NCBI RefSeq assembly: GCF_000383955.1 | Contig: NZ_KB913013.1 | Location: forward strand, 291,694-355,693 | Length of the DNA: 64,000 bases | From: Rudanella lutea DSM 19387 | GTDB taxonomy: Bacteria; Bacteroidota; Bacteroidia; Cytophagales; Spirosomataceae | Direction: 5' to 3' | In this document: piece after piece, positions 2,504-56,010 of the stretch | Numbering within the stretch: position 1 is the stretch's first letter | How the letters are laid out: the number at the start of each line of letters is the position of its first letter | Made by a program: the position numbers and the translations under genes | The notes under the pieces: model-generated | The model's database searches: none | What the model saw: the letters and a program-made list of their open reading frames with translations, nothing else | What the model was told of the DNA's origin: nothing

Positions 2504-2724
2504 GATATTGAGTTGTAAGCTACCAAACGGAGCATTGCAGAGAAGCGGGTGGGTACGAAGACCGTTACTTTTTAACCCTCGGTTAAACGCTGTGGCTCGT
2601 TGCGTGTCTCAGAGATGTAGCTCATTTCGGCAGGCGAAATTACGAAGATTTAGCGGGGCAACCCGTAAGTTTGGGGGTAATCTGCCTTTTGGGCATATAC
2701 GTTGTTCCTATTTACCAATTTAAT

Positions 2725-3591
2725 ATGTCGATCAATCGTCGCGATTTTCTCAAGCGTACCGGCGTACTGGCTGCCGGTGCCCTCGCTCTTAACCATACAG
2801 CCGCTCTGGCTGCCAAGAACATAGGTGTTTTTGGGGTACAATTGTACAGCGTTCGGGATGTATTACCCAAAGATCCGAAAGGTATTATGACCCAACTGGC
2901 GCAGATGGGCTATCGTCAGTTTGAAAGCTACCAGGGCAACCAGGGCTTTTTGTGGGGGATGAGTCCGAAAGAGATTAAGTCGTTCCTGAACGACATTAAC
3001 GTGAAGATGGTCAGCACGCACTTCAACTACGGTGGGCAGGCGAATAAACCCGACGAGTTGAAAAAAAGCTTCGACATGGCCGCTGAGGCTGGCCTGACGT
3101 ACGCATTGTGCCCATACATTGGGGCTCAGAAGTCATTTGACGACTGGAAGCGTATTGCTGATGGGTTCAACAAAGCGGGTGAACTGGCCCGGCAGAGTGG
3201 GGTCAAGTTTGGTTACCACAACCACGACTATTCATTCAAGGCGCTCGACGGTAAAATTCCGCAGGAGTACCTGCTGGCTAATACCGATCCGAAAAATGTG
3301 ATGTTTGAACTGGATCTGTGCTGGATTGATGTGGCGGGGCAGAATCCCGTAGAGCACCTGAAAAAGTATGGCAAGCGATATGAGCTGTGCCACATCAAGG
3401 ATTACAAGAAAGAAAACGGCAAACCCGTTCAGAATGACCTCGGCAAGGGGAACGTTGATTTCAAAACAACCCTCAAAACCGCCCGGGACAACGGCATGAA
3501 GTACTTTATCGTGGAGCAGGAAGAATACCCAACCTCGCCTATGGAAAGTATGAAAATGGACGCGGCTTACATGAAGCAGTTGAGTGTATAA
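2725..3591 (+). CDS. exported sugar phosphate isomerase/epimerase-like TIM barrel protein
   Basis: 288 residues. The start chosen at 2725 puts a twin-arginine signal (MSINRRDFLKRTG) at the N-terminus followed by an alanine-rich hydrophobic stretch; an 18-codon upstream in-frame extension looks like leader DNA. The mature part is an AP-endonuclease-2/xylose-isomerase-like barrel with metal-ligand segments YHNHD, FELDLCWID, ELCHIKD and FIVEQEE. The protein is probably folded in the cytoplasm and exported by Tat. Such proteins in this phylum are often near Gfo/Idh/MocA genes and act on keto-sugars or cyclitols, but the substrate here is unknown. Confidence 0.85.
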   Translation: MSINRRDFLKRTGVLAAGALALNHTAALAAKNIGVFGVQLYSVRDVLPKDPKGIMTQLAQMGYRQFESYQGNQGFLWGMSPKEIKSFLNDINVKMVSTHFNYGGQANKPDELKKSFDMAAEAGLTYALCPYIGAQKSFDDWKRIADGFNKAGELARQSGVKFGYHNHDYSFKALDGKIPQEYLLANTDPKNVMFELDLCWIDVAGQNPVEHLKKYGKRYELCHIKDYKKENGKPVQNDLGKGNVDFKTTLKTARDNGMKYFIVEQEEYPTSPMESMKMDAAYMKQLSV

Positions 3592-3605: not shown

Positions 3606-3682
3606 TGATGAGTTATACGTGATGAACGATGAATGGGCTGCCGCTAAAATTTTACTCATCGTTCATCACGTATAACTCATCA
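3606..3682. repeat. heptamer hairpin A2 (27-bp perfect stem)
   Basis: Arms 3606-3632 and 3656-3682 are perfectly complementary over 27 bp. The left side reads as heptamers ending GATG (AGTGATG, CGTGATG, AACGATG) and runs into ATGGGCTG, which also ends the left arm of hairpin A1. It fills the gap between the convergent isomerase-like gene and menB, starting about 15 bases after one stop and ending about six bases from the other. Confidence 0.9.
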
Positions 3683-4512: not shown

Positions 4513-4589
4513 ATGAGTGATGAATGATAAGTGATGAACGATGAGTGATCTCGCGTCAGCAAGTTTATCACTTATCGTTCATCACTCAT
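4513..4589. repeat. heptamer hairpin A3, overlapping the end of the DUF2452 gene
   Basis: Arms 4513-4535 and 4567-4589 pair over 23 bp with one mismatch. They read as heptamers AGTGATG, AACGATG, AATGATA. The left arm touches the menB initiation codon, and the right arm contains the last five codons and the stop of the DUF2452 gene. Unlike A1 and A2 it lies between two codirectional genes. Confidence 0.88.
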
Positions 4590-6843: not shown

Positions 6844-7581
6844 ATGTTTAAAAACGTACAGATACGCTTCCAGACGGCCCGGTCACTCCCGGCTCCATAC
6901 GCTTATTTCTTCACCCTGGCGGTTCGCCCGGCGTTTAAAGACTATCTCGCCGTTGACCTGAGCGTGACCTACCCGGATCGCGATGATATCGACGACGATG
7001 AGCTCATTGCCGAAGGCTACACCCGCGACGACGATTTTGCCTGGAATGGTCGGTTTGGGCTTGTGTGGCAACAGGCCATGGCGTCGCTGGTGCAGAAAAC
7101 GAAGCTGGAAACCCTGAATGAAGAAGAGCTTGACGAGGATGATGACTTCTGGGAGGTGTCTCTGACGGCGGAAGACGGCACCCAAAAAACGGGGATGCCC
7201 GCCAATTATGAAGATTGGCAATACCTGATTCAGGAACTGATGCAGGCTACGTACGAAGCGGCCGGCCGCGAACGTCCCTTCGAGCTAACCTACGTTGAAC
7301 CAGGTCGGGAGGGGGATCTGGAGGTGCAGATTACAGCCTCCTTTGCCGAACGAACCATAAACCTGCAAACAACCCAAAACGGACGGTCGAAGACGAAAAC
7401 GTTGCCCTGGAAAACGCTTCAGTCGATTATGAGTACCATTTATGATGTGGATTTCGACCCCGAAGAAGCCGAACTAAAGCGCCCCCGTCGGGCGGGAGCG
7501 TGGCTCAACCTGGGTACTGAAGAATGGTACGACGTTGGGCCTTATGAAGATATTACGGCGATGCTACGGAAGATCGGCTAA
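6844..7581 (+). CDS. conserved hypothetical protein
   Basis: 245 residues starting MFKNVQIRF; an ATG 15 bases upstream is also possible. Strongly acidic patches (DDIDDDE, DEDDDFWE) alternate with what look like beta-rich segments. There is no signal peptide, membrane span or enzyme motif I recognise. Its 3' end overlaps the convergent methyltransferase gene by 29 bases. The coding quality is good and the function is unknown. Confidence 0.7.
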   Translation: MFKNVQIRFQTARSLPAPYAYFFTLAVRPAFKDYLAVDLSVTYPDRDDIDDDELIAEGYTRDDDFAWNGRFGLVWQQAMASLVQKTKLETLNEEELDEDDDFWEVSLTAEDGTQKTGMPANYEDWQYLIQELMQATYEAAGRERPFELTYVEPGREGDLEVQITASFAERTINLQTTQNGRSKTKTLPWKTLQSIMSTIYDVDFDPEEAELKRPRRAGAWLNLGTEEWYDVGPYEDITAMLRKIG

Positions 7582-12164: not shown

Positions 12165-12405
12165 TTGGTAGACAATTAGGGGGTTTAGACTGGAGTTAAA
12201 GAAAGATCATCCAAAAAAGTAGGGGATAGGGCAGGATTACCCGCTACACCGTTCTTTTTGGCCAAAATTTTAGAAAAAAATGGATTTACGCTAATTTCCG
12301 GCCGTAAAAATTATCGCACTGTGCAACGGGTAAAGCGGTTCCTTCGGCCACTTTACTACCGTAGTGATTACGTTTCACAGCATCAACTTAAACAGTAGCA
12401 AGTAT

Positions 12406-13557
12406 ATGCATCGCAAATTGCGCATGGGTCAGATCGGGGGTAGCCTCGATGCATTCATAGGAGCTGTTCACCGTCGGGCCGCCACATTTGATAATGAAAT
12501 TGAGTTGGTTTGTGGTGTTTTTAGCCAATCACCCGAAAAATCGAAAGCAACCGGAAAGGCCCTGTACCTGCCCGATAATCGTGTTTATGAAAGCTTCGAG
12601 GAGATGATTCTCCGCGAAAAAGAACTGCCCGAAGGCGAGCGTATGGACTTTGTCAGCATCGTGACGCCTAACCATATGCACTTCCCACCGGCCAAAATGG
12701 CCCTCGAAAATGGGTTCCACGTTATTTGCGACAAGCCCATGACGCTGAACCTGGAGGAGGCCAAAGAGCTGGTTGGCATTGTGGAGAAAAGCGGATTGGT
12801 CTTCGGCCTGACGCACAACTACACGGGCTATCCGATGATTAAAGAGGCCCGCGATATTGTCCGTAACGGTAAGTTGGGGAAAATCCGGAAAGTGGTGGTC
12901 GAGTACCCGCAGGGCTGGCTATCGAAGTACGAAGAAGGCAACAATTACAAGCAGGCGATTTGGCGTACCGACCCGACCAAATCGGGCGCGGCCGGCTGTA
13001 TGGGCGACATTGGCACGCATGCCGAGAATTTGGCTGAATACGTAACGGGTCTGAAAATTGAAGAATTATGCGCTGACCTGAGCACGTTTGTCCCGGGTCG
13101 TTTGCTCGATGACGACGGCAACGTTCTGCTCCGGTTTGAGGGCGGAGCCAAAGGCGTACTGCATGCCAGTCAGATTTCAAATGGCGAAGAGAACGCCCTG
13201 AAAATCTACGTGTACGGCGAACTCGGCGGTCTGGAGTGGCATCAGATGGAGCCCAACACCCTGCACTACAAATCGCAGGAAGGCCACCGACTGTTGCGCC
13301 CGGCCGTAGGTGATCTGAGCGCAGCAGCCAAAGCACACGGCCGGATGCCATCGGGCCACCCCGAAGGATTCTTCGAAGCATTTGCCAATATTTACCGCAA
13401 TTTTGCCTTTGCCGTAAAGGCACACATGAACGGTCAGCAGCCCGATCCGCTGTACGATTTCCCGTCGGTGTACGATGGCGTTCGTGGCCTGGCGTTTATT
13501 GATACGGTACTGGCATCGAACAGCTCTAATGAAAAGTGGACGAAGTTTAAAGAGTGA
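12406..13557 (+). CDS. Gfo/Idh/MocA-family oxidoreductase (first of the operon)
   Basis: 383 residues from the ATG at 12406. N-terminal Rossmann region ([19 protein letters not shown]), [16 protein letters not shown], then the family lysine motif CDKPMTLN near residue 120 and HNYTGYPMI in the catalytic domain. [19 protein letters not shown] carries the conserved histidine. NAD(P)-dependent sugar or cyclitol oxidation is the family activity. The stop codon lies inside the octamer hairpin that separates it from the second oxidoreductase gene. Two different paralogues plus an isomerase suggest successive steps such as oxidation and re-reduction of a sugar. Confidence 0.9.
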
Positions 13558-13631
13558 AAGAGTGAAAGAGTGAAAGAGCGATGTCTGAAAATCCCTTTCA
13601 CTCTTTCGCTCTTTCACTCATTCACTCTTTT
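13549..13631. repeat. octamer hairpin E1 (GTGAAAGA units), empty copy
   Basis: The left arm at about 13549-13580 is tandem GTGAAAGA octamers and includes the stop codon of the preceding gene. The right arm at about 13598-13629 is the complement with a few substitutions. The short loop has no gene. The same unit forms the two arms that surround the four-helix-bundle gene at 14829-15269. Confidence 0.88.
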
Positions 13632-13649
13632 GATAATCTAAATACATAC

Positions 13650-14795
13650 ATGCAAAAAATCCAAGTTGGTGTTGTTGGTACCGGGTTTATCGGCCCCGCT
13701 CACATTGAAGCACTCCGTCGGTTACCCAATGTTGAAGTCGTTGCCCTCTGCGAAGTGACGCAGGAGCTGGCCGAATCGAAAGCCGCTCAACTGGGTATTC
13801 CCCGCGCCTATACATTCGATGAGCTGCTCAAGCAGGACGACATTCAGGCTGTGCATATCTGTACGCCCAACTTCCTGCACTACAGTCAGTCGAAAGCGGC
13901 TCTGCTGGCGGGTAAGCACGTGATCTGCGAAAAACCCTTAGCCAAGGATCTGGCCGAAGCCGAGGAACTTGTCGCTCTGGCGAAGCAAACCGGTCTGGTC
14001 AATGCTGTTCACTTCAACCTGCGGTACTACCCGCTGGTGCGTCAGATGAAGGTGATGCGCGAAAAAGGCGAACTGGGCGAGGTGTACAGCATTATTGGCT
14101 CGTACCTGCAGGACTGGCTCTTTTACGAAACCGACTACAACTGGCGTCTTGAGCCCGATAAGTCGGGTGATTCGCGGGCGATTGCCGACATTGGCTCGCA
14201 CTTGATGGATATTCTGGAGTACGTGACCGGCGTGAAGACCACCGCCGTCATGGCCGACTTCAATACTATCCACAAAACCCGTAAGAAGCCGCTGAAGGCC
14301 GTTGAGACCTATTCGGGTAAGATGCTGCAGCCGGAAGATTACGCCGATGTACCCATCAATACCGAAGACCATGCCAACGTATTGCTTCGTTTCGACAACG
14401 GCAATCGGGGTGTTGTCACGGTGTCGCAGGTGTCGGCTGGCCGGAAGAACCAGCTGAAAATCGAGATTTCGGGCTCGAAGAAAACGTTTGCCTTTGATTC
14501 AGAATCGCCTAACCAACTCTGGATTGGTAACCGCGACGGCTACAACCAAACCATGACCGACGACCCGTCGCTCGTACATGCCGAAACGCGCTCGGTGATC
14601 AGCTTCCCCGGCGGGCACAATGAGGGTTTTCCGGATACGTCGAAGCAGATGTTCAAGGAAGTGTACGCAGCTATCGAAGCCGGTAAGCAACCTGAGAACC
14701 CCACGTACCCAACATTTGAAGACGGCTACCGCGAACTACTCATCTGCGAGCGGATTCTGGAAAGCAGCCGTAAGCAGGCGTGGGTGGAGGTGTAA
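13650..14795 (+). CDS. Gfo/Idh/MocA-family oxidoreductase (second of the operon)
   Basis: 381 residues starting MQKIQVGVVGTGFIGPAHIE, a textbook Rossmann start, so an in-frame 23-codon extension through the upstream hairpin is rejected. Visible: ICTPNFLHYSQSK, ICEKPLAKD with the family lysine near 97, and IADIGSHLMDILEYVTG with the conserved histidine. It differs clearly from its neighbour, so the two are old paralogues and not a recent duplication. The stop is followed within a few bases by the left arm of the hairpin containing the four-helix-bundle gene. Confidence 0.92.
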   Translation: MQKIQVGVVGTGFIGPAHIEALRRLPNVEVVALCEVTQELAESKAAQLGIPRAYTFDELLKQDDIQAVHICTPNFLHYSQSKAALLAGKHVICEKPLAKDLAEAEELVALAKQTGLVNAVHFNLRYYPLVRQMKVMREKGELGEVYSIIGSYLQDWLFYETDYNWRLEPDKSGDSRAIADIGSHLMDILEYVTGVKTTAVMADFNTIHKTRKKPLKAVETYSGKMLQPEDYADVPINTEDHANVLLRFDNGNRGVVTVSQVSAGRKNQLKIEISGSKKTFAFDSESPNQLWIGNRDGYNQTMTDDPSLVHAETRSVISFPGGHNEGFPDTSKQMFKEVYAAIEAGKQPENPTYPTFEDGYRELLICERILESSRKQAWVEV

Positions 14796-14824
14796 AGGTG
14801 AAAGAGCGAAAGAGTGAATGAGCG
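14792..14824. repeat. octamer hairpin E2, left arm
   Basis: GYGAAWGA octamers starting at the stop codon of the second oxidoreductase gene. It pairs over about 30 bp, with roughly four mismatches, with 15294-15328, leaving the four-helix-bundle gene in the intervening loop of about 470 bases. Confidence 0.85.
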
Positions 14825-14828
14825 AGTT

Positions 14829-15269
14829 ATGACAACCGACGACAAAGACGAAACGAATATGGATTGGTCTGTTGAGGAGTATATTGTTGACTATTCAGGC
14901 CATTCTAAAAGTGAGTTTTTGGACGATATTCAAGGGCGATTGAAGAAATTTATGCTCCGTTGTCTGTCGGTTTGCCGGGCATTGCCGACTGCGTATGAAG
15001 CACAACACTTCAGTCGGCAGCTAATTCGTTCATCGTCCTCGGCTACTGCTAATTTTCGTGCCGTCCGGCGTGGGCGCAGCGAGAAAGAGTATTATGCAAA
15101 ATTGAGTGTCGTTATTGAAGAACTCGATGAATCACTCTTTTGGCTCGAAACACTGGTGGATGCCAATTTGGTAGCATCGTCTCGATTAGCAGGCCTTCTC
15201 GACGAGGGCTATCAAATCCTCAAAATCTTGTCCAAATCACGTAAAACAGCAACAAAACAGAGAGAGTGA
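14829..15269 (+). CDS. four-helix-bundle protein (23S rRNA IVS-encoded/Avd-like family)
   Basis: 146 residues from the ATG at 14829; ATG 14859 (MDWSVEEY) is an alternative. Four amphipathic helices are visible, with the family signature FSRQLIRSSSSATANFRAV followed by SEKEYYAKLSVVIEELDES and LFWLETLVDANL. Members are encoded inside intervening sequences of bacterial 23S rRNA genes and are relatives of the Avd accessory protein of diversity-generating retroelements; their function is poorly known. Here the gene interrupts a sugar-oxidation operon and sits in the loop of an octamer inverted repeat whose empty counterpart lies one gene upstream. It has no metabolic link to its neighbours and looks like a passenger of a hairpin element. 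Confidence 0.87.
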   Translation: MTTDDKDETNMDWSVEEYIVDYSGHSKSEFLDDIQGRLKKFMLRCLSVCRALPTAYEAQHFSRQLIRSSSSATANFRAVRRGRSEKEYYAKLSVVIEELDESLFWLETLVDANLVASSRLAGLLDEGYQILKILSKSRKTATKQRE

Positions 15270-15293
15270 ACGTGCGGAAGAGCGCTCAACCGG

Positions 15294-15328
15294 CACTCTT
15301 TCACTCTTTCACTCTTTCACTCTTTACA
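15294..15328. repeat. octamer hairpin E2, right arm
   Basis: Tandem complement of GTGAAAGA (CACTCTTT read on the plus strand), ending three bases before the start codon of the isomerase gene. Partner of 14792-14824. Any translation signal of the isomerase must lie within the repeat. Confidence 0.87.
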
Positions 15329-15330
15329 TC

Positions 15331-16383
15331 ATGAAAACAATGAAAGGGCCAGGTGTTTTTCTGGCACAATTTCTCGGAGATACAGCCCCTTTTAACTCTC
15401 TCGATACCATCGCCCGTTATATGGCCGACCTCGGCTACAAGGGCATTCAGCTTCCGACCTGGGACCCACGGGTAATTGACCTGAAGCAGGCTTCGGAAAG
15501 CAAAACGTATTGCGACGAGCTGAAAGGCAAACTCGCCGATATTGGCGTCGAAATCACCGAACTATCGACCCACCTGCAAGGGCAGTTGGTAGCCGTTCAC
15601 CCATCGTACGCAGCCATGTTCGATGGATTCGGGCCGGCCGAACTGGCGGGTAAGCCGAAAGATCAACAGGCGTGGGCCGTGAATCAGCTGATGATGGCGG
15701 CCAAGGCGAGCCAAAATCTGGGGCTCACCTCACACGTTTCGTTTACGGGGGCCCTGTTGTGGCCGTTTATGTACCCGTGGCCGCAGCGCCCGGCAGGCCT
15801 GGTTGAAACGGGCTTCACCGAACTCGCCAATCGTTGGAAACCAATCCTGGATGCGTTCGACGAAGCAGGTGTGAACGTCGGGTACGAACTGCACCCCGGC
15901 GAAGACGTGCACGATGGTGTCACGTTTGAAATGTTCCTCGAAAAGCTGAACAACCACCCCCGGGCCGGTATCAACTACGACCCGAGCCACTTTGTGTTGC
16001 AGTGCCTCGACTATCTGCAGTTTATCGATTTCTACCACGAGCGTATCTACGCATACCACGTGAAAGATGCCGAGTTTAACCCAACGGGCAAGCAAGGTGT
16101 GTACGGTGGCTTCCAGGGCTGGGTTGAGCGGGCCGGTCGGTTCCGTTCGCTCGGCGACGGTCAGGTTGATTTCGGCGGTATTTTCTCCAAACTGGCGCAG
16201 TACGACTACGACGGCTGGGCGGTGTTGGAGTGGGAGTGTGCCCTGAAGCACCCTGAGCAGGGAGCCGCCGAAGGCGCGCCCTTCATCGAAAGCCACATTA
16301 TCCGGGTTACGGAACGTGCTTTCGACGACTTCGCCGGTACGGGTGCCGATGAGGCTTTTAACAAGAAGGTTCTGGGGCTGTAA
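15331..16383 (+). CDS. sugar phosphate isomerase/epimerase, xylose-isomerase-like TIM barrel
   Basis: 350 residues, no signal peptide. Metal-binding segments of the AP-endonuclease-2 fold are seen: TELSTHLQGQ, VGYELHPGED, INYDPSHFV, YAYHVKDAEF and VLEWECALKHPEQG. Together with the two upstream oxidoreductases and the divergent MFS permease it forms a likely pathway for a sugar or inositol derivative. Oxidation to a keto-sugar followed by isomerisation or elimination is plausible by analogy with known Bacteroidota clusters, but this is inference. The gene immediately follows the right arm of the repeat carrying the four-helix-bundle gene. Confidence 0.88.
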   Translation: MKTMKGPGVFLAQFLGDTAPFNSLDTIARYMADLGYKGIQLPTWDPRVIDLKQASESKTYCDELKGKLADIGVEITELSTHLQGQLVAVHPSYAAMFDGFGPAELAGKPKDQQAWAVNQLMMAAKASQNLGLTSHVSFTGALLWPFMYPWPQRPAGLVETGFTELANRWKPILDAFDEAGVNVGYELHPGEDVHDGVTFEMFLEKLNNHPRAGINYDPSHFVLQCLDYLQFIDFYHERIYAYHVKDAEFNPTGKQGVYGGFQGWVERAGRFRSLGDGQVDFGGIFSKLAQYDYDGWAVLEWECALKHPEQGAAEGAPFIESHIIRVTERAFDDFAGTGADEAFNKKVLGL

Positions 16384-35349: not shown

Positions 35350-35497
35350 ATAATAGATAATGGATAATGTAGAATGAATAATGTAAAATGGATAATGAAC
35401 AATGTAGAATGGATAATTATTGAACCGGCTAAGAGTCAAGCTATCACAATTCTACATTATCCATTACACATTGCCCATTCTCCATTACCCATTATTT
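35349..35497. repeat. heptamer hairpin A4, longest copy
   Basis: The left side (35349-35418) is almost perfectly phased in heptamers of form NNNAATG: GATAATG, TAGAATG, AATAATG, TAAAATG, AACAATG. The right side (about 35451-35497) holds the complement with substitutions. It begins at one stop codon and ends three bases from the next, between two convergent genes, so it fills the whole junction. Confidence 0.9.
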
Positions 35498-35499
35498 AT

Positions 35500-36096
35500 T
35501 TAAAACAACTTCGGGCACCGGGCAGGGTTGCGGTATCGGCGCGCTTTGGGCGACCGCAGGGGCGGATTTGGGTTCGGAATGAACGCATACCCAATGGAAG
35601 GCTGCACCGCAAAGCCCCGGTCCTGAAACTGCCGGGTAGTGTACAAGCCCATGCTAAGCTCAATGGAGTGGTTATCGCCCAGAAAATAAGCCAGCCCCGT
35701 GCTCAAAAATGTGCCGCTCGAACGCTCACGCTCGGGTGGCCCTACACGGTCTTTTACGTAAGGGGTGCTCAGAAATAAATCGATAAATGGCTTCAGGCTT
35801 CCCCGTTCGCCAAACCCATTGGCCGAGTAAACCCGGTAGCCTACCCCAAACGCCTGATTCTGGTTAGTACCCTCCGCCCGACCATAAAACCAGAGAGCAA
35901 TGCTCGGCTTTTCGAGCATGAATACCCGGCCAAGCGACACACTCACGGGAGCGGCCATCGGGGCCTTAGGTTCGTTGCGAAAGGGTTGCCGCACGTTTTG
36001 TACACCACTGCCAATTCCTACCCCCCATCGGTCCTGCCCACGGGCAAGCGAAGCTGTAAAAACCAGAAATAGTACAAAACGATAAAAGCCAACCAT
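35500..36096 (-). CDS. putative outer-membrane beta-barrel protein
   Basis: 198 residues. Signal peptide (RFVLFLVFTASLARG) and alternating strands with glycine and aromatic residues (WGVGIGSGVQNVRQPF, IALWFYGRAEGT, SIELSMGLYTTRQF) suggest a small barrel of about eight strands. The C-terminal 20 residues are basic and proline-rich, unlike a typical barrel end. No family assigned. Confidence 0.65.
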   Translation of the reverse strand: MVGFYRFVLFLVFTASLARGQDRWGVGIGSGVQNVRQPFRNEPKAPMAAPVSVSLGRVFMLEKPSIALWFYGRAEGTNQNQAFGVGYRVYSANGFGERGSLKPFIDLFLSTPYVKDRVGPPERERSSGTFLSTGLAYFLGDNHSIELSMGLYTTRQFQDRGFAVQPSIGYAFIPNPNPPLRSPKARRYRNPARCPKLF

Positions 36097-43269: not shown

Positions 43270-43480
43270 GGTTACGTGAATGGACAATGAATAATGTACA
43301 GTGTAGAATAGACAATCAAGCGATTGATTTGGCCAATCGATGACAATTGAACGCGGATTACGCGGATTACGCGGATCGAGCCGATATGCGCCGATTACCA
43401 ATCCGCAAAAATTAGCTTAATCCGTTTCATCTGCGTGCCAATTCGTTTGTACTGTACATTATCCATTGATTTTGACTCAG
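43270..43480. repeat. heptamer hairpin A5 with a nested palindrome
   Basis: Outer arms 43285-43302 and 43451-43468 pair over 18 bp and read as heptamers GACAATG, AATAATG, TACAGTG. The loop of about 150 bases contains tandem CGCGGATTA units (from 43353) and a partial complement, forming a second imperfect palindrome. Fills most of the 293-base gap between the two codirectional glycosidase genes. Confidence 0.8.
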
Positions 43481-46026: not shown

Positions 46027-46108
46027 ATGAATCATGTAAAATGTATAATGAAATGGCTGATTGTCAGTAGGTAGACCAATCGTTCGTTGTACATTTTACA
46101 TGGTTCAT
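46027..46108. repeat. heptamer hairpin A6
   Basis: Arms 46027-46052 and 46083-46108 pair over 26 bp with three mismatches and read as heptamers TATGATG, AATCATG, TAAAATG, TATAATG. Between the convergent TreZ-like and treS genes, 25 bases after one stop and 12 before the other. Confidence 0.88.
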
Positions 46109-55936: not shown

Positions 55937-56010
55937 AATGAACAGTGTAAAATGTATAATGGAGGTGGCAGCTAAACCAATTATTCATTATCCATTTTAC
56001 ATTATTCATT
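55937..56010. repeat. heptamer hairpin A7, overlapping the esterase stop codon
   Basis: Arms 55937-55962 and 55985-56010 pair over 26 bp with four mismatches; heptamers TATAATG, AACAGTG, TAAAATG. The right arm contains the stop codon of the convergent carbohydrate esterase gene. Confidence 0.87.

Follow-up and report, generated by a model that had tools for sequence, protein, structure and literature searches.

A proposed hairpin element in an operon of Rudanella lutea

What kind of genetic element is formed when a gene of the S23 family, also called intervening-sequence protein (IVP) genes, lies between two complementary arms of short tandem repeats inside a protein-coding operon? The question is raised by a 64,000-nucleotide stretch of Rudanella lutea DSM 19387 (contig NZ_KB913013.1, positions 291,694 to 355,693, forward strand; hereafter the window), where two hairpins built from GTGAAAGA octamers flank one oxidoreductase gene (gene 3), one hairpin being empty and the other containing a gene that matches TIGR02436 and PF05635. 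Inverted arrays of this kind recur around S23 genes in the host's taxonomic family and in other phyla, and we hold with modest confidence that the S23 gene and its two arms are one hairpin element of the intervening sequence (IVS) type outside ribosomal RNA (rRNA), whose protein would recognize the array hairpin and aid its spread or persistence.

The gene-bearing hairpin (site B) consists of a left, G-rich arm at 14791-14822 and a right, C-rich arm at 15296-15328, which on alignment pair with one gap and two mismatches, and its left arm holds the TAA stop codon of gene 3 (14793-14795). The empty hairpin (site A) has 33-nt arms at 13549-13581 and 13598-13630 that are 91% complementary across a 16-nt loop, with the TGA stop of gene 2 (13555-13557) falling within its first unit. 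A sequence-only reading of the window had described both structures, the gene between octamer arms, of which the left begins at the preceding stop codon, and the empty copy one gene upstream, and both were confirmed. RNA folding gave −47.4 kcal/mol and a z of −8.4 for the empty hairpin and a z of −4.45 for the whole gene-bearing element. The GTGAAAGAGTGAAAGA pattern (two octamers, at most two mismatches) occurs 10 times in the window, where 0.04 occurrences would be expected, which excludes chance, and the 204 octamer matches in the whole genome (at most one mismatch; none for the reversed control pattern) mean that the octamer is not confined to this operon. The gene order, all on the forward strand, is gene 2 (12364-13557), the empty hairpin, gene 3 (13650-14795), the gene-bearing hairpin, and gene 4 (15331-16383); from open reading frames (ORFs) and Pfam profiles, genes 2 and 3 are GFO/IDH/MocA oxidoreductases and gene 4 encodes a xylose-isomerase-like TIM barrel.

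The gene in the site B loop (14829-15269, forward strand) starts at an ATG at 14829, with a GTG at 14814 likewise open, and its product, with 36.8 bits for PF05635 and 61.7 bits for TIGR02436, scores above the respective cut-offs of 33.8 and 24. A monomer structure model of the protein (mean predicted local distance difference test score 86.7) finds its best structural matches in S23 structures, with target-normalized template modelling (TM) scores of up to 0.90 for 2RLD and 0.86-0.87 for 2GSC, and phmmer also matches the protein to 2rld (E = 6.5e-9). The earlier assignment to the four-helix-bundle family of 23S IVS proteins is borne out by these results, the likeness to Avd being weaker. The window's genome has five TIGR02436 genes, a TIGR02436 match is present in 137 of 150 genomes of the host's taxonomic family, and S23 relatives occur in many bacterial phyla and an archaeon. 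Two reports call the function of S23/IVP proteins unknown (PMC4990558, PMC11270868). A ring-shaped homopentamer is the form expected in this family, and the Xanthomonas S23 protein is described as a pentamer (PMC4990558).

Inverted arrays around S23 genes

All five S23 genes of the window's genome lie between inverted arrays, with a different unit at each (AGTTGTA, AGTTTTC, GAACAAC, AATGCGT, and GTGAAAGA types, with arm scores of 21, 18, 27.5, 20, and 24, respectively). The arm score is that of the best local alignment between the upstream 250 nt and the reverse complement of the downstream flank, with a threshold of at least 14, and it was applied to 102 loci of the taxonomic family, comprising the five own loci, seven from the genus, 30 from a family search, and 60 picked from a score-ranked list, a sample that leans toward high-scoring TIGR02436 members. 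With one locus left out for a short flank (L076), inverted short-unit arrays were found at 75 of 101 loci and in only two of 982 windows shifted within the same loci. Pairing of left flanks with the right flanks of other loci reached the threshold in 50 of 1010 combinations, which may reflect units or sites common to several loci. The idea that any accessory gene looks so was ruled out with DUF433 genes of the same taxonomic family (30 fetched, five left out for short contigs), since in equal windows arms were found at 0 of 25 DUF433 genes compared with 77 of 101 TIGR02436 genes; with one flank widened to 800 nt, one of the 25 DUF433 genes scored. One of the five own S23 genes (L033, match 1501-1824) has an in-frame TGA with both arms still present and looks like a decaying copy.

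The association extends beyond the taxonomic family. A scan of one genome per species, limited to the best 80 of 585 relatives, covered Bacteroidota, Pseudomonadota, Acidobacteriota, Bacillota, Planctomycetota, Chloroflexota, Cyanobacteriota, Patescibacteria, others, and Methanophagales archaea, as labelled by record titles, and with three loci left out (L220, L228, and L247) arms scored at least 14 at 59 of 77 loci and in 9 of 721 control windows. By the same title-based labels, arms were present at all loci of Acidobacteriota (7/7), Planctomycetota (4/4), and Desulfobacterota (3/3), and at 22 of 29 loci in Bacteroidota, 8 of 10 in Pseudomonadota, 4 of 7 in Bacillota, and 2 of 4 in Chloroflexota, and the sole testable archaeal locus scored 14.5. 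The sequence-only reading had set as its test whether members of this gene family are flanked by short-unit inverted repeats, and most loci carry them in the taxonomic family and among these best-matching relatives alike. The tree of these relatives mixes phyla, with 38 changes of phylum where 21 is the least possible and shuffled labels give a mean of 49.7. Very long arms of 7-nt units occur at the S23 genes of a planctomycete (L203, more than 200 nt) and of genome G098 (L131, more than 100 nt), and both are good cases for the study of array growth.

Step, polarity, and position of the arrays

The array unit varies from one locus to another. Its step and its polarity stay largely the same: among the 134 loci with clear arms, the arm period is 7 nt in 104, 8 nt in 22, 9 nt in two, and another value in six, and the 5' arm has more G than C in 104, the reverse in one, and no clear skew in 29. 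The G-rich strand points toward the loop, and because an inverted repeat is identical on both strands, this polarity belongs to the hairpin and not to the direction of the gene. The median arm is 32 nt long and the median element about 0.5 kb.

Position follows the host operon. At the 101 loci of the taxonomic family, both neighbours run in the same direction as the S23 gene at 75, both run opposite at 17, and the arrangement is mixed at six and undecided at three; the neighbours are codirectional at 92 of 98 loci, compared with 126 of 193 ORF pairs of the window's genome (p = 2e-11). Where the arms are clear and the upstream gene is on the same strand, the upstream stop codon and the start of the left arm are −12 to +21 nt apart in 48 of 58 loci. 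For the 14 antisense elements whose arms are clear, the distance of the outer end from the stop codon of the gene upstream in the operon is −6 to +35 nt. As the arms stand at the upstream gene's stop codon in both orientations, position follows the host gene and not the direction of the element.

In a test of concerted evolution at site B, the two arms within a locus were more alike than left and right arms across loci in 17 of 22 cases (p = 0.001), and against left-left and right-right comparisons the same held in just 14 of 22 each (p = 0.02 and 0.16). S23 elements with different units recur in several genera in what looks, by eye, like a leucine biosynthesis operon (L058, L059, L060, L062, L064, L100, L101, L106, and L110), and paired S23 elements about 2.7 kb apart are found in G019, G039, G054, and G077.

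Gene-less hairpins and their tie to the S23 gene

Hairpins without a gene are common in the window's genome. A census of periodic inverted repeats in 284 contiguous kb, with arms less than 400 nt apart so that gene-sized loops were left out by design, found 31, of which 22 have a period of 7 nt, five of 8 nt, and four of 9 nt, and 25 have a G-rich 5' arm compared with two of the opposite polarity. Hairpins of other genomes show the same bias (21 against 2, of 30), and non-periodic inverted repeats divide evenly (3 against 3, of 13). Of the 31, 19 lie between codirectional, nine between convergent, and two between divergent genes, and one is within an ORF; the corresponding figures for all adjacent ORF pairs, with ORFs called heuristically, are 126, 35, and 32. 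When loops of up to 3 kb were allowed in the same 284 kb, two periodic arm pairs enclosing 853 and 1717 nt appeared, together with a weaker pair that encloses 891 nt; each of the three consists of arms of neighbouring hairpins, and no cargo gene other than S23 was found within arms.

Two comparisons tie these hairpins to the gene. First, stretches picked by position (mostly 20 kb, one just 1.2 kb) contained one periodic hairpin in 401 kb of eight genomes without a TIGR02436 match and 21, a few of them doubtful by eye, in 340 kb of 10 genomes with a match; eight of the 21 come from 80 kb of the genus mate G001 chosen for synteny, and without it the count is 13 in 260 kb. Second, the arms of close relatives of the window gene, of which 26 of 30 loci score at least 14, are by eye of two octamer kinds, GAGTGAAA (GAAAG) in 18 genomes and GAGTGATT (GATTG) in 12, and the kind found in the arms is also the more abundant in genome-wide arrays of 17 of the 18 GAAAG-armed and 10 of the 12 GATTG-armed genomes (p = 2e-5; p = 0.003 within genus g4), a result in which kinship among genomes is not fully controlled. 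In G066, one of the GAGTGATT genomes, the unit is of a third kind, and the control with the reversed pattern is high. At least 10 GTGAAAGA array matches are present in all 18 genomes that hold a relative of the window gene at an E of 1e-50 or better.

Further hairpins were observed in the window's genome. A 9-nt array family of ACAGGATTN type forms several hairpins (L137, about 7090-7500 and 19750; L142, about 6500 and 15430), at least one of which has the opposite G/C polarity. At two places (L143, 4293-5790; L144, 6841-9240), cas1 genes, recognized by Pfam matches to Cas1 and Cas2, are flanked by GTGAAAGA-type hairpins on either side.

Occupied and empty sites among relatives

In several genera, orthologues of the window gene lie between arms of octamer type at site B or at the site upstream of it, and a recent hop from site A to site B is ruled out by their presence at these sites. 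Within the genus, what stands at the two sites differs. Site B holds the S23 element in the window's genome (G000). In its place, G001 and G003 carry a DUF433 gene (profile match at both) and another small gene, perhaps a toxin-antitoxin pair (L154 (rc), about 2660-3300; L156 (rc), about 1260-1950), and the insert behind gene 3 differs from species to species; in G002 just a short gap (about 22 nt) is left, which is similar to the outer end of a right arm and looks like a scar (compare L181). At site A, the hairpin is empty and built of octamers in both G000 and G001, whereas G002 has a hairpin of 9-nt units and G003, at a contig end, the end of an S23 gene with an arm. Since G003 retains the end of an S23 gene there, the window's empty hairpin more likely lost its gene than was freshly inserted empty.

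Besides the site in the window, eight gene-bearing sites were compared in G000 and two well-assembled genus mates, of which three are common to two species by eye (L032/L039, L034/L042, and L033/L037) and five are single-species. The latter, chosen as not looking shared, were followed through four genomes, where 19 of 20 genome-site cases were found and 18 were readable, with gene names read off the translated context. At the prmC-like|moxR-like site, only G000 has the S23 gene, with none in G001, two array units in G002, and G003 unreadable; at an RND operon, G001 has the gene, G000 an empty hairpin of another unit, G002 an unrelated palindrome, and G003 nothing; at the uppP-like|truB-like site, only G002 has the gene, with arms less regular than most, and the other three genomes have short spacers; at a second RND operon, only G001 has the gene, G000 and G002 have other inserts, and the site was not found in G003; at the fifth site, G002 has the gene, G000 and G001 have empty hairpins and another gene, and G003 has something else. 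The sequence-only reading had called for a comparison of orthologous operons for presence or absence of the insert, and such a difference between species was found at the five chosen sites. No target-site duplication was evident by eye at the sites compared with relatives, where boundaries are blurred by divergence. Another hairpin family in like positions is seen in G002, where one palindrome, TTTTTGTCATCCCGACGCAGGAGGGATCTAG with its complement, lies right behind the flank gene at two sites (L339 and L343) that are occupied by S23 elements in G001.

Gene-less hairpins of the window also vary between close relatives. In the alignment of the window with G001 (83-92% identity in long blocks), empty 7-nt hairpins at 1202-1280 and 55937-56010 are common to both genomes with diverged arms, and that at 35352-35500 is common with a right arm 14 nt, or two units, shorter in G001; those at 3606-3682 and 4513-4589 are matched by a hairpin with largely different arms and by one of another unit (AGTGAGG type), respectively; the one at 46027-46108 is absent at that site in G001, and a long-loop 7-nt inverted repeat at 43285-43468 lacks its left arm there.

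The strongest alternative, unlikely in our judgement, is a vertically inherited module that acts at the RNA level and does not move, the hairpin being a device of mRNA processing or stability which the S23 protein binds so as to regulate itself or its operon. The location in operons close to stop codons, the strong RNA folds, and the orthologues at the same sites across genera agree with such a module, as do the mostly basic proteins, with an isoelectric point (pI) above 8 in 64 of 101 S23 proteins of the taxonomic-family loci, and the reported cutting of the rRNA IVS by RNase III (PMC4990558). It does not account well for the 17 of 101 elements that are antisense to both neighbours, the five sites with the gene in one species only, or the dispersed gene-less copies, which tend to match the resident unit.

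Slightly less probable still is that the arrays came first, short-unit palindromes being made between genes by replication slippage and the S23 gene being a passenger that survives best or is captured there. Heptanucleotide repeats are described in a survey as the commonest 5-11-nt class in most genomes and blamed on polymerase slippage (PMC4679880), hairpins far outnumber gene-bearing ones, and arrays persist in genomes without the cognate gene; against this, DUF433, another small accessory family, has no arms (0/25), few hairpins are present where a genome has no TIGR02436 match, and slippage has to contend with the prevailing polarity.

Comparison with known systems

The closest known system is the 23S rRNA intervening sequence. 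The Coxiella IVS is reported to form a hairpin that contains the S23p ORF, has a stem of 28 bp, and is excised by RNase III, and tandem heptamer repeats (GACAGAT) upstream of the ORF vary in number between strains (PMC4990558). IVP ORFs are also reported within insertions of both 16S and 23S rRNA genes of candidate phyla radiation bacteria (PMC11270868). The window's element shares with the rRNA IVS of Coxiella, Leptospira, and others the protein family, the gene in a hairpin loop, and the complementary terminal arms, and differs in lying between protein-coding genes of an operon and not inside an rRNA gene; moreover, both arms here are arrays, gene-less copies are dispersed in the genome, and the unit turns over, features absent from the passages on the Coxiella IVS. 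The IVS-like design in an operon, with protein-bearing and empty forms, that the sequence-only reading had proposed is supported. A 23S motif scan gave just matches to a 15-base motif at up to three mismatches, which were taken as chance.

REPIN/RAYT systems combine dispersed short hairpins with a gene that is flanked by inverted copies of their repeat. The elements described here resemble them in the dispersed gene-less hairpins of one repeat family and in the repeat-flanked gene, but the flanked gene is a TIGR02436 member where a RAYT system has a Y1 transposase (no search was made for RAYT genes in the rest of the genome), the unit is locus-specific, and the arms are tandem 7-8 nt arrays. 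With miniature inverted-repeat transposable elements (MITEs) and other palindromic repeats they share intergenic palindromes and empty copies; unlike MITEs, they show no target duplication evident by eye at the compared sites with their blurred boundaries, and their arms may switch unit at a shared site yet stay paired. The four-helix-bundle fold is common to Avd of diversity-generating retroelements, but it is very improbable that the S23 protein is an Avd-like partner of a trans-acting reverse transcriptase and that the element moves by reverse transcription as those retroelements do, since the modelled likeness to Avd (4DWL and 8UB7; TM by query 0.62-0.63) comes with an insignificant Foldseek E of just 0.3-0.5, and since, for all that PF05635 is reported from retroelement neighbourhoods (PMC10053308), G000, G001, G002, and G019 have 5, 4, 3, and 10 S23 genes and no RVT_1 match, which tells against an RVT_1-type partner in the window's genome, and RVT_1 matches occur in G028 and G102, which have an S23 gene, and in three of three genomes without one.

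In searches restricted to open-access PMC papers, and largely to their listings, arrays flanking S23 genes outside rRNA were not described. The legend of a figure in a study of CRISPR-linked proteins (CRISPR, clustered regularly interspaced short palindromic repeats) names a 23S rRNA IVP (PMC10910872), and short-unit arrays near IVP genes might be taken for CRISPR arrays.

Proposed mechanism and significance

Under the IVS-type hairpin reading, the element would be a pair of inverted G-rich arrays of 7-8 nt units with an S23-type ring-protein gene in the loop, placed behind stop codons inside protein-coding operons. The ring protein would recognize the array hairpin as DNA or RNA and may help array hairpins to spread or persist. 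One arm could be copied from the other within the hairpin, which would keep the arms alike and let the unit drift while pairing is kept; units would then agree within a locus and differ between loci, as the comparison of arms partly supports. The transcribed hairpin may be cut from the mRNA by a double-strand-specific RNase, by analogy with the rRNA version, so that insertion into an operon would be tolerable. The gene-less hairpins may be dependent copies, or remnants left after gene loss. The proposal in the sequence-only reading of a mobile element with two forms thus stands as regards the forms, both of which exist, but the pair in the window, having orthologues at both sites elsewhere, is not evidence of a recent move, and from the sites compared here mobility is what we infer.

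Several observations weigh against this reading. The S23 gene at the window's site is old and not a fresh insertion, and presence and absence between species can also be loss, G002 having what look like arm scars at two sites. The genomes compared showed neither a transposition event, nor a target duplication, nor an enzyme (no search was aimed at a transposase with the same ends), and Coxiella S23p is reported as probably not expressed (PMC4990558). By score, 26 of the 101 taxonomic-family loci are without clear arms, and the cross-phylum tree is poorly resolved, with too few columns to prove transfer. The link between gene and hairpins is also incomplete, for in genus g32 taken by itself the difference in hairpin density, 9 in 400 kb compared with 1 in 161 kb, does not reach significance (p = 0.30), and at least 10 GTGAAAGA array matches are still present in 20 of the 204 genomes that have no close relative of the window gene.

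A wider reading may be entertained tentatively, its parts together falling somewhat short of an even chance, in which S23/IVP genes are the hallmark of a separate class of mobile element, very common in prokaryotes, that has just physical constants in its DNA, namely inverted arrays with a 7-8-nt step, the G-rich strand toward the loop, and the site right behind a stop codon. The ring protein would then read step and polarity instead of sequence, so that each lineage could re-invent the unit, and the arms might be rebuilt by mutual copying or might grow at their 3' ends by one G-rich unit after another, in a telomere-like manner without reverse transcriptase. On this wider reading, rRNA intervening sequences would be cases of this element landed in rRNA, and many short bacterial palindromic repeats would be gene-less progeny of the S23 element. 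There is a real chance that the hairpin element outside rRNA is the general form and the rRNA insert its special case.

The recurrence of one design around S23 genes in very different bacteria suggests an overlooked class of genetic element. Tying the S23 gene to a defined DNA structure outside rRNA gives it a testable function, the recognition of 7-8-nt array hairpins, and the link would offer an origin for rRNA intervening sequences and account for a body of dispersed palindromes made of short units. If pairing, step, and polarity are kept while the sequence of the hairpin may change freely, this would be an unusual kind of genetic identity.

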